Below, in pieces: positions 47,558 through 52,669 of a DNA stretch of 64,000 nt. The translations under genes were made by a program, and so were the position numbers. Source of the DNA: Ectothiorhodospiraceae bacterium BW-2 (GTDB lineage Bacteria > Pseudomonadota > Gammaproteobacteria > Thiohalomonadales > Thiohalomonadaceae); NCBI GenBank assembly GCA_008375315.1, contig CP032507.1:3620071-3684070 (forward strand), given 5' to 3'. The notes beneath the pieces are model-generated. The model saw only the letters and a program-made list of their open reading frames with translations, was not told the origin of the DNA and made no database searches. Position 1 is the stretch's first letter. The number at the start of each line of letters is the position of its first letter.

Positions 47558-47690
47558 ATGAAAATGATCCACACCTCAGATTGGCATTTAGGCCGCTCCC
47601 TACCACCCCACTCTCAGCTAGCCGTAGCTCACTCTCTGGGCCGGGTGTACAAAGAAGATAAAAACATAGGCATGATCCATTCCGGATGAA
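47558..47690 (+). pseudogene. sbcD: 5' remnant of sbcD (exonuclease subunit)
   Basis: From ATG 47558 the frame reads M-K-M-I-HTSDWHLGRSL, the universal start of SbcD/Mre11 with the first metal ligands Asp and His. Similarity stops after about 15-25 codons and the frame closes at 47690 in unrelated sequence. The rest of sbcD and sbcC are absent here. This is a truncated gene end left by a rearrangement next to the transposase region. Confidence 0.7.
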
Positions 47691-47772
47691 AATGTTTTCA
47701 ATGCCCGAACGGCTTTCGGTCATCCCCGGCATATAGAGGCGAGGGCGTCGGAGGGGGCGTCGGGGCGGGTTT
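47683..47772 (-). pseudogene. Decayed partial RAYT copy
   Basis: About 90 bp repeat part of the intact transposase gene (compare 47949-48048) with many substitutions: the ATGAAAATGTTTT run, the CCGGTAATCC-like run and the following G-rich REP-like sequence are in the same order. It abuts the 3' end of the intact copy and the sbcD remnant, indicating two insertion or recombination events at this site. Confidence 0.65.
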
Positions 47773-47778
47773 CTACAG

Positions 47779-48321
47779 TCAACACCAGATGCTCGGATGT
47801 AATTTATCCAATTCCCATTGGGCAGGATTGTTTTGGATATATTCCCTGAGATGATTCAATTCCATTTCGTTGCGGATGATATGTTCCCAATAATTGCGTT
47901 GCCATAATTTTGTACCCGGGGTTTGGCGCGATTCGTTAATGCGTCGGGATGAAAATGTTTTTAACGCCCGAATGATTTCCGGTAATCCATGGCGTGTAGG
48001 GGCGAGGGGCAGCAGGACAGAGGGGGCAAGTTTGAAACCCGCCTCCACAGAACCCGTCAATAGAATAATGCAGTGAAAATGATTGGGCATCACCACCCAT
48101 TCATCCAATTCAATATGCGGATAGTGGCTGGGCAATGCATCCCATGTCATCTGCAATATTTTTCCTGCATCATTCAATTGCATTTCACCATTTGAAATTT
48201 CCCCAAATAGACACTCCCGATTTTGGGTGCAGATAGTTACGAAATAGGCTCCGGCCTGAGAATAATCATACCACTTCAACCTAATAGAGCGACGATGATG
48301 AATCTCTGGATTATATTTCAT
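47779..48321 (-). CDS. REP-associated tyrosine transposase (RAYT)
   Basis: A 180-residue Y1-type HUH protein. The start SIRLKWYDYSQAGAYFVTICTQ, cited only by its opening WYDY, is typical. The HUH motif is MPN-H81-F-H83, and the C-terminal LWQRNYWEH and HLREYIQNNPAQW motifs include Tyr144 and Tyr161; Tyr161 is the likely nucleophile. RAYTs are single-copy relatives of IS200/IS605 transposases that act on REP palindromes. Residues about 90-111 (AGFKLAP region) are encoded by a degenerate copy of the palindrome found in the adjacent array. The array begins some 13 bp upstream of its ATG. The protein appears complete. Confidence 0.9.
   Translation of the reverse strand: MKYNPEIHHRRSIRLKWYDYSQAGAYFVTICTQNRECLFGEISNGEMQLNDAGKILQMTWDALPSHYPHIELDEWVVMPNHFHCIILLTGSVEAGFKLAPSVLLPLAPTRHGLPEIIRALKTFSSRRINESRQTPGTKLWQRNYWEHIIRNEMELNHLREYIQNNPAQWELDKLHPSIWC
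47991..48048. repeat. Degenerate REP copy inside the RAYT coding sequence
   Basis: The plus-strand text GGCGTGTAGGGGCG, a G-rich 25-nt middle, then GTTTGAAACCCGCC matches the two arms of the array palindrome and its GGCGT left flank. It is translated in frame as part of the transposase, between the HUH motif and the GLPEIIRA helix. Confidence 0.65.
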
Positions 48322-48333
48322 TATCCCACCTCC

Positions 48334-50668
48334 CCGCTAACCCGACGAAACCACCCGAAACCCGCCGATCCAACAAAACCCGAACCCTACAAAACCCAAC
48401 CGCATCAAACCCATTATCGATGACATATTCCTCGGCGTGTAGGGGCGGGTTTCAAACCCGCCCCTACGAAACCCGAAACCCACCTAACCCGACGAAACCA
48501 CCCGAAACCCGCCGATCCAACAAAACCCGAACCCTACAAAACCCAACCGCATCAAACCCATTATCAATGACATGTTCCCCGGCGTATAGGGGCGGGTTTC
48601 AAACCCGCCCCTACGAAACCCGAAACCCACCTAACCCGACGAAACCACCCGAAACCCGCCGATCCAACAAAACCCAAATCCTACAAAACCCAACCGCATC
48701 AAACCCATTATCAATGAGATGTTCCTCGGCGTGTAGGGGCGGGTTTCAAACCCGCCCCTACGAAACCCGACACCCACCTAACCCGACGAAACCACCCGAA
48801 ACCCGCCGATCCAACAAAACCCGAACCCTACAAAACCCAACCGCATCAAACCCATTATCGATGAGATGTTCCCCGGCGTGTAGGGGCGGGTTTCAAACCC
48901 GCCCCTACGAAACCCGAAACCCACCTAACCCGACGAAACCACCCGAAACCCACCTAACCCGACGAAACCACCCGAAACCCACCTAATCCAACGAAACCAC
49001 ACGAAACCCGCCGATCCAACAAAACCCAAATCCTACAAAACCCAACCGCATCAAACCCATTATCGATGAGATGTTCCCCGGCGTGTAGGGGCGGGTTTCA
49101 AACCCGCCCCTACGAAACCCGAAACCCACCTAACCCGACGAAACCACCCGAAACCCGCCGATCCAACAAAACCCGAACCCTACAAAACCCAACCGCATCA
49201 AACCCATTATCAATGACATGTTCCCCGGCGTGTAGGGGCGGGTTTCAAACCCGCCCCTACGAAACCCGAAACCCACCTAACCCGACGAAACCACCCGAAA
49301 CCCACCTAACCCGACGAAACCACCCGAAACCCACCTAATCCAACGAAACCACACGAAACCCGCCGATCCAACAAAACCCAAATCCTACAAAACCCAACCG
49401 CATCAAACCCATTATCGATGAGATGTTCCCCGGCGTGTAGGGGCGGGTTTCAAACCCGCCCCTACGAAACCCGAAACCCACCTAACCCGACGAAACCACC
49501 CGAAACCCGCCGATCCAACAAAACCCGAACCCTACAAAACCCAACCGCATCAAACCCATTATCAATGACATGTTCCCCGGCGTGTAGGGGCGGGTTTCAA
49601 ACCCGCCCCTACGAAACCCGAAACCCACCTAACCCGACGAAACCACCCGAAACCCGCCGATCCAACAAAACCCGAACCCTACAAAACCCAACCGCATCAA
49701 ACCCATTATCAATGACATGTTCCCCGGCGTGTAGGGGCGGGTTTCAAACCCGCCCCTACGAAACCCGAAACCCACCTAACCCGACGAAACCACCCGAAAC
49801 CCGCCGATCCAACAAAACCCGAACCCTACAAAACCCAACCGCATCAAACCCATTATCAATGACATGTTCCCCGGCGTGTAGGGGCGGGTTTCAAACCCGC
49901 CCCTACGAAACCCGAAACCCACCTAACCCGACGAAACCACCCGAAACCCACCTAACCCGACGAAACCACCCGAAACCCACCTAATCCAACGAAACCACCC
50001 GAAACCCGCCGATCCAACAAAACCCGAACCCTACAAAACCCAACCGCATCAAACCCATTATCAATGACATGTTCCTCGGCGTGTAGGGGCGGGTTTCAAA
50101 CCCGCCCCTACGAAACCCGACACCCACCTAACCCGACGAAACCACCCGAAACCCGCCGATCCAACAAAACCCGAACCCTACAAAACCCAACCGCATCAAA
50201 CCCATTATCAATGACATGTTCCCCGGCGTGTAGGGGCGGGTTTCAAACCCGCCCCTACGAAACCCGAAACCCACCTAACCCGACGAAACCACCCGAAACC
50301 CACCTAACCCGACGAAACCACCCGAAACCCACCTAATCCAACGAAACCACCCGAAACCCGCCGATCCAACAAAACCCGAACCCTACAAAACCCAACCGCA
50401 TCAAACCCATTATCAATGAGATGTTCCCCGGCGTGTAGGGGCGGGTTTCAAACCCGCCCCTACGAAACCCGAAACCCACCTAACCCGACGAAACCACCCG
50501 AAACCCGCCTAACCCGACGAAACCACCCGAAACCCACCTAACCCGACGAAACCACCCGAAACCCGCCGATCCAACAAAACCCAAATCCTACAAAACCCAA
50601 CCGCATCAAACCCATTATCGATGAGATGTTCCCCGGCGTGTAGGGGCGGGTTTCAAACCCGCCCCTAC
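48334..50668. repeat. REP-type array with 14 perfect palindromes
   Basis: The core is a 29-nt perfect palindrome, GTAGGGGCGGGTTT-C-AAACCCGCCCCTAC (one copy has ATAGGGG at its left). The A of TAGGGG falls at 48441, 48588, 48735, 48882, 49087, 49234, 49439, 49586, 49733, 49880, 50085, 50232, 50437 and 50642. Spacing is 147 bp (eight times) or 205 bp (five times). The difference is two extra copies of a 29-bp subunit (CCTAACCCGACGAAACCACC plus CGAAACCCA). Between palindromes the plus strand is strongly C/A-rich. All periods except the subunits keep a multiple-of-three or compatible phase, creating long but spurious reading frames. It starts next to the RAYT gene and ends 4 bp from argB. Confidence 0.95.
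50640..50668 (-). terminator. Last array palindrome, possible argB terminator
   Basis: The fourteenth palindrome lies 4 bp beyond the argB stop on the minus strand. Its 14-bp stem with a minimal loop could stop or pause transcription leaving argB, though no U-tract follows. A transcript stem this strong would at least protect the mRNA 3' end. Confidence 0.45.
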
Positions 50669-50672
50669 TCAA

Positions 50673-52669
<1,997 letters not shown>

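Follow-up and report, generated by a model that had tools for sequence, protein, structure and literature searches.

How RAYTs (REP-associated tyrosine transposases) recognise their REPs, and how enzyme and target stay matched while both change fast, is the question raised by a locus in Ectothiorhodospiraceae bacterium BW-2 at which a RAYT gene stands beside a tandem array of REP palindromes. An initial annotation of this DNA had read the array as either a local amplification product or a distinct REP organisation, and had recommended it as a place to study how RAYTs copy their substrates. The window, i.e. the whole stretch of DNA analysed, is 64,000 nt long, and positions below refer to it unless stated otherwise. 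The array and its two neighbours are laid out as follows.

48337..50668, unstranded: tandem array of 14 REP palindromes, in units of 147 and 205 bp
48439..48467, unstranded: perfect REP copy closest to the RAYT
48586..48614, unstranded: sole imperfect REP copy, G to A at base 1
50640..50668, unstranded: REP copy closest to argB; the array edge coincides exactly with the end of this REP
50673..51569, minus strand: argB (amino acid kinase family), upstream neighbour of the array
47779..48321, minus strand: RAYT (TnpAREP) gene, 180 aa, intact frame, identified by Pfam, NCBIfam, alignment and fold
47681..47773, minus strand: relic just past the RAYT stop, a degenerate REP-like stretch with a partial copy of the alphaC coding sequence

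The palindrome, GTAGGGGCGGGTTTCAAACCCGCCCCTAC, is 29 nt long and GTAG-tagged, and its copies begin at 48439, 48586, 48733, 48880, 49085, 49232, 49437, 49584, 49731, 49878, 50083, 50230, 50435 and 50640. The initial annotation was right that a RAYT gene adjoins 14 such palindromes, of which none is expected by chance and none appeared in 100 dinucleotide shuffles. Its finer points need adjusting: 13 of the 14 copies are perfect, rather than all of them, with a single change in the remaining one (48586, G to A); the repeat sequence does adjoin the gene, but begins at 48337, 15 nt before the RAYT ATG rather than about 13 bp, with the first palindrome 118 bp upstream of the ATG; and the spacing, described as regular, is tandem with two intervals, 147 bp in 8 of 13 cases and 205 bp in 5 of 13. 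The 205-bp intervals contain two additional 29-bp sub-repeats, higher-order repeats of 352 and 499 bp run through the array, and the units vary at 10 of 147 sites. The last palindrome ends 4 nt past the argB stop codon, and argB, array and RAYT all point in the same direction. The unit count is that of the assembled sequence, in which the genome is one contig.

Each unit holds one self-complementary REP and all units lie head to tail, an arrangement distinct from the two inverted REPs that make up a REPIN or BIME. The palindrome itself has the foot, the hairpin and the many genomic copies of a REP of the GTAG, double-foot type; as single-stranded DNA its hairpin folds at -15.7 kcal/mol (z -7.1). 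With the array upstream and the degenerate REP-like relic downstream, in which the alphaC copy is 65 nt long and 80% identical, the RAYT is flanked by its own REPs, as in a REPtron. We also considered other descriptions of the array. It is not CRISPR-like, the 'spacers' being copies of one another, and it is not a coding array: ORFs of up to 188 aa cross the 147-bp units, but the 205-bp units disrupt the frame. Nucleotide diversity (pi) is 0.005 in the palindromes versus 0.035 in the spacers, which could mean selection on the palindromes; this is suggestive, yet palindromes and spacers do not differ significantly in their polymorphic sites (P = 0.37).

The RAYT ORF is uninterrupted from start to stop. 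Its product matches Pfam Y1_Tnp with 37 bits (cut-off 23) and, in two stretches, the NCBIfam model for REP-associated tyrosine transposases with 76.8 bits, just below the cut-off of 80. Both the HuH and the Y---NP motif of RAYT/TnpAREP proteins (class 2 Y1 HuH) are present, including N165 and P166, which among 47 aligned proteins are invariant and conserved in at least 90%, respectively; Y---NP is given as the class 2 motif in the available text of Quentin et al. (2018; PMC6006769). The residues and segments on which the argument below depends are these.

48073..48081, minus strand: HuH residues H81-F82-H83, with H81 and H83 invariant in 47 aligned proteins
47839..47841, minus strand: Y161 of the Y---NP motif, putative catalytic tyrosine, invariant in 47 proteins
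47996..48048, minus strand: decayed in-gene REP VEAGFKLAPSVLLPLAPT, in frame, 23 of 29 nt as in the array palindrome
47926..47985, minus strand: helix alphaC (residues 113-132), putative REP-reading helix

W140, Q141, E146, H147 and R150 of the window RAYT match by spacing W94, Q95, E100, H101 and R104 of the E. coli enzyme, residues that the same available text discusses for GTAG contact while calling the role of W94 unclear (PMC6006769). The predicted model (mean pLDDT 84.1) has the E. coli TnpAREP structure 4er8 as its best Foldseek match (E 1.3e-7), and a profile of 47 group members also matches 4er8 (E 5.6e-8). Between beta3 and alphaC lies a variable, in-frame, REP-derived insert as in TnpAREP subclass 2.4. 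It differs from the array palindrome by 6 mismatches in 29, against 11 in the best of 300 codon shuffles; its hairpin is no longer notable, and the loop that it encodes is predicted with pLDDT below 50 at residues 93-108. Judging by the REP-derived insert, the double foot and the taxonomy, the window RAYT fits RAYT group 4, or TnpAREP subclass 2.4, with 'double-foot' REPs. Within the phylum few close relatives exist: 8 of 398 genomes, its own included, have a match at E 1e-20 or better. The BW-2 genome has one intact RAYT of this type. Plasmid relatives amount to 5 records at E 1e-5, all below 60% identity, and none was confirmed among 8 candidate stretches in viral contigs.

Within 3 mismatches, the palindrome occurs at 51 places in the BW-2 genome, 14 in the array and 37 elsewhere. 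Outside the array, 32 of the 37 copies are bordered on one side by RAYT coding sequence (a match of 14 or more of 20 nt, comparing with the RAYT sequence 3' of the in-gene REP and taking the orientation with the better match). In terms of the gene, these RAYT-derived fragments begin at positions 318-322, where the in-gene REP has its 3' end, and continue in the 3' direction for 27 to 134 nt; none derived from the coding sequence 5' of the in-gene REP was found in the genome. Since the segment belongs to the conserved core, it probably moved outward from a RAYT gene. The array REP and the dispersed RAYT-derived copies have only short flanks in common (ACGCC and CGGGTTTC). Spread with RAYT sequence attached is a feature of this genome, and a MITE and gene amplification probably contributed more to it than the RAYT did. 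Fifteen of the 37 outside copies are RAYT relics with a REP, 13 of them at 2.496-2.526 Mb and 2 at 1.18 Mb, and tandem PDDEXK_2 nuclease genes lie at these sites (Pfam on one representative).

G000:C1:2496000-2526500 (L035, L036) and G000:C1:1182500-1186300 (L037), genome positions: PDDEXK_2 tandem family

In the larger cluster the unit is about 1.7 kb, with REP-bearing RAYT relics between the copies; the proteins, which we take to be of an Rpn-like nuclease family, end in variable QAERE repeats. In most nuclease units an insert splits the RAYT fragment, the second half of which corresponds to gene positions 370-451. Among the other 22 copies, which are dispersed, 16 have a MITE end within 200 nt (both ends in 8, left only in 3, right only in 5, neither in 6), and an exact 8-bp target duplication surrounds 4 of the 8 with two ends. 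The MITE is about 260 bp long, with 22-bp ends GGCCTTGTTCATCGTTTCGTCA (e.g. L010, L012, L014 and L016), and its end has 107 genomic matches within 3 mismatches, many of them distant from any REP. REPs with neither RAYT sequence nor a MITE end are few (genome positions 3183445 and 3341580). Outside the array, then, the REP is mainly a passenger, either in a MITE into which part of a RAYT gene has been taken up or in a tandem PDDEXK nuclease gene family.

The array has a different context. A query of two units matched the 118-nt spacer in the array only (whole genome; 40 of 51 candidates scored), and at the scored places elsewhere the match went no further beyond the REP than 10 nt to one side and 19 nt to the opposite side. 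A sensitive blastn search likewise found no spacer outside the array in the 193 kb that holds all 37 other REP places. The spacer has been copied together with the REP and is found only in the array, which argues for local amplification, as the initial annotation had allowed. We therefore think it probable that the locus is a REPtron whose array was multiplied by local tandem duplication, and that the REP elsewhere is mainly a passenger. A RAYT with its REP would have arrived at the place adjoining argB, and tandem duplication would have come later. In the 17 relatives with sequence beyond argB we found no RAYT, REP or array there, and the three single GTAGGGG matches beyond argB in relatives all lie inside the next gene. 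That gene is, in 16 of the 17, presumably TetR/SlmA-like. The duplicated unit, a REP together with some 118 nt of adjacent DNA in the interval from argB to the RAYT start, would have been copied in place by unequal recombination or replication slippage with the aid of the 29-bp sub-repeats; the product would be a small satellite with higher-order 352-bp repeats, into which REPs were not inserted one by one. A palindrome-assisted nick by the RAYT could have started the duplications, and the enzyme would most likely recognise the REP as a single-stranded hairpin, through alphaC and the GTAG foot. Both the amplification mechanism and the activity of the RAYT we infer from sequence.

REPs inside RAYT genes are common in this group, as is already published for the in-frame REPs of subclass 2.4 (available text of Quentin et al., 2018; PMC6006769). 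Our set comprised 80 RAYT genes, namely 79 of the best 80 of 457 homologous stretches and the window gene. Between HuH and alphaC, 70 of the 80 have at least one exact REP foot, and 45 contain the exact GTAGGGG as well as the exact CCCCTAC; outside this segment, feet are seen in 2 of the 80 genes. Synonymous recoding gave both feet in 0.18 genes on average, with a maximum of 3 (200 trials). The longest inverted repeat of the linker exceeds all control windows of the same gene in 65 of 79 cases, a count in which the window gene and L115 are uninformative, their linkers having been shortened by the motif search, L116 has no control window, and L132 was unparsed. REP-like coding segments also lie beside the CLFGE stretch in L132 (RAYT residues 34-41) and L115 (about nt 109), so the insertion site may not be unique. 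In L119, L142, L145 and L084 the in-gene REP segments are tandemly multiplied in frame; L119 has GPRACPD-like units four times, a protein-level echo of the array.

From gene to gene, alphaC residues vary together with the REP core. Across the 63 genes in which both feet are present, allowing one mismatch, distance in the C-terminal part of the protein tracks REP-core distance beyond what the N-terminal part accounts for (partial Mantel r 0.27, P 2e-4), and the same holds in 29 symmetric cases (r 0.26, P 4e-4). Nine of the 10 strongest columns lie within residues 105-132, which make up 28 of the 139 tested; the best covarying residues are A119, E115, R118, T122, H111 and F123, and the REP 3' arm gives a similar picture. 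E115, A119 and H111 remain in the top eight whether the symmetric set (29) or the dereplicated set (30) is used. No association with the REP core is seen for residues 76-90, immediately ahead of the insert (mean z -0.8 vs 5.7 for alphaC), in a 5' flank so conserved that little association could appear there. High scores outside alphaC fall on Y67 (full set) and on H66 and L63 (symmetric set). Conserved alphaC positions cannot contribute, so the way in which the scores are spaced along the helix does not prove that they mark a face. Pairs of genes with the same core have 81% of alphaC residues in common vs 59-62% elsewhere, and pairs with at least 4 core differences have 33% vs 50-53%.

Phylogeny was taken into account by partialling out distances and by reducing the set to 30 dereplicated genes, and the covariation extends across phyla. 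In same-core pairs, codon identity at shared alphaC residues is 0.55, against 0.52 and 0.59 elsewhere in the gene; alphaC is not above the rest of the gene, so there is no sign of recent joint transfer, and linkage is not favoured as the cause of the covariation. Among the 80 homologues, only L079 and L097 share the KTF[ST] of the window alphaC, and the in-gene REPs of these two (AGGTTCC and GGGTTCC types) come closest to the array palindrome. At the level of sequence, the covariation thus links the window RAYT to its array independently of their position. The association of enzyme and palindrome that the initial annotation had proposed is upheld: the genome has one intact RAYT of the type, the palindrome was not found within 2 mismatches in 19 relatives, mostly drafts, and the alphaC signature matches. 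Judged by position in the fold, the helix that stands out in the covariation would be the DNA-binding helix alpha3 of the E. coli enzyme, a residue of which contacts the REP stem bulge according to the available text of Corneloup et al. (2021; PMC8266576), and we infer that alphaC contacts the REP directly. We found no report of alphaC/REP covariation in group 4 in the open-licence texts available to us; the available text of PMC6006769 reports neither this covariation nor RAYT fragments on dispersed REPs.

Does the REP inside the gene correspond to REPs in the rest of the genome? Among 9 genomes with complete lists, 5 have at least 3 further copies of the core of their own gene, and none of the 54 other combinations of gene and genome reaches three copies (Fisher P 1.8e-5). 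This table omits G025, G033 and G044, in which the in-gene REP falls short of a full palindrome of the pattern; none of the three showed exact copies of its own core, giving a fuller count of 5 of 12. The own core is found in the gene alone or is absent in G030, G032, G035 and G042; for G042 the other 26 palindromes stood as placeholders, and by eye none equals the core of another genome. In G051 most own-core copies share a contig with the gene and lie no more than about 1 kb away, and in G040 the own core accounts for 3 of the 50 places listed, out of 109. Bare 28-nt REPs with unrelated flanks make up 6 of 8 fetched own-core copies in G046, 4 of 4 in G052 and 2 of 9 in G029. We had considered that dispersed REPs might be bare in all three genomes alike, but this fails for G029: 6 of its 9 fetched copies share a flank at no fewer than 14 of 16 nt, and a seventh, L173, ended by the contig end, looks alike, so that those REPs also sit in a larger repeat. 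The fetched copies in these three genomes show no clear adjoining RAYT sequence, with L204 a weak exception. The nearest relative with such a RAYT is G002, in which a REP with the in-gene core stands just before the conserved part of the protein and the listed ORF reads through it.

L049, 1381-2115: RAYT of G002 (59% identical); REPs sharing a single core lie at its start and within it

The gene ahead of this RAYT is presumably trpE. The array palindrome is absent, within 2 mismatches, from 19 relatives, mostly draft genomes.

Other origins for the array deserve weighing against local duplication. The RAYT itself may have built it, by repeatedly copying REPs into a hot target beside its own gene. 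The array directly adjoins the RAYT, its far boundary next to argB coincides exactly with the edge of a REP, and the bare REPs in G046 and G052 suggest that single REPs are probably mobile in the group. However, the 118-nt spacer is co-copied throughout, and one-by-one insertion would not copy it; we consider this origin unlikely. It also seems quite improbable that the array is kept for a function, such as forming a string of hairpins in the transcript by which the RAYT behind argB is protected or adjusted. None of the 17 relatives has an array at this place and the difference in diversity is not significant, although argB, array and RAYT do run in one direction, the REP folds well as single-stranded DNA (-15.7 kcal/mol) and the palindromes have the lowest diversity.

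The initial annotation had also stated that the link to the RAYT would be accidental if the palindrome were equally abundant near unrelated loci. Most copies (37 of 51) do lie elsewhere, and 16 of the 22 dispersed ones lie by MITE ends, as expected of a general repeat with no relation to its neighbouring enzyme. Yet RAYT sequence flanks 32 of those 37, and the GTAG feet, the absence of the palindrome from 19 relatives, the alphaC match and the degenerate copy inside the gene (6 mismatches, where 300 codon shuffles never fell below 11) all speak for a relation, making mere coincidence very improbable. Finally, near-identical tandem repeats are easily miscounted in assembly, but the units carry distinguishing changes and the genome is a single contig, so that we give an artefactual copy number hardly any credence. 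On the reading that we prefer, a REPtron with an array multiplied by tandem duplication in place, the locus suggests that plain tandem duplication can give rise to a REP array next to a RAYT, and it cautions against taking RAYT-side REP arrays as transposition products. The hope that the array would give a view of how RAYTs copy their substrate is not supported.

The RAYT family around the array is the more interesting object. We suggest, tentatively, that group 4 RAYT genes may carry their own substrate in frame, that alphaC may read its stem, and that an in-gene REP may be able to found a family. If so, enzyme and target specificity would be inherited as one piece of DNA; the REP-derived peptide would be a floppy loop, and alphaC residues 111, 115, 118, 119, 122 and 123 would read the stem. 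The in-gene REP would found the REP family of its genome, leaving together with 3' coding sequence, and each metagenomic group 4 gene would be one enzyme-substrate pair, enough of them for a recognition code. As group 4 genes have their likely target inside, such pairs can be collected from sequence alone.

The closest known system is TnpAREP subclass 2.4, which, in the available text of Quentin et al. (2018; PMC6006769), has the same HuH and Y---NP core as the window RAYT, the same GT[AG]G foot on both REP ends, the same variable in-frame REP-derived insert between HuH and Y, and the same broad, scattered taxonomy; the window differs in its decayed in-gene REP and in the 14-copy palindrome array upstream. 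The E. coli TnpAREP-REP complex 4er8, the best fold match of the window RAYT, is a group 2 enzyme with a bulged REP, unlike the window RAYT, and structural and SELEX work covers RAYT groups 2 and 3 (Corneloup et al., 2021; PMC8266576, available text). Array-like REP clusters have been described in Pseudomonas fluorescens SBW25, where, in the portions available to us, REPs are evenly spaced in tandem as here, REPINs are repeated with their flanks, clusters stand beside RAYTs and a second mechanism is proposed for cluster formation (Bertels and Rainey, 2011; PMC3116915); the largest arrays there have 12 GI/GIII REPs, whereas the window has 14 single double-foot REPs and a group 4 RAYT. In the available text of Di Nocera et al. 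(2013; PMC3733652), clustered GTAG-23 REPs of T. roseum likewise recur in tandem with flanking DNA, and REPs inside genes are described as well; the REP families are other than that of the window, and the REPs mentioned at transposase genes overlap the gene ends rather than lying inside. With even tandem arrays and RAYT-side clusters already described in these two sources, as far as available, the alternative of a distinct REP organisation is weakened; the array adds one more, somewhat larger, case to an arrangement already known, and local duplication accounts for it best.
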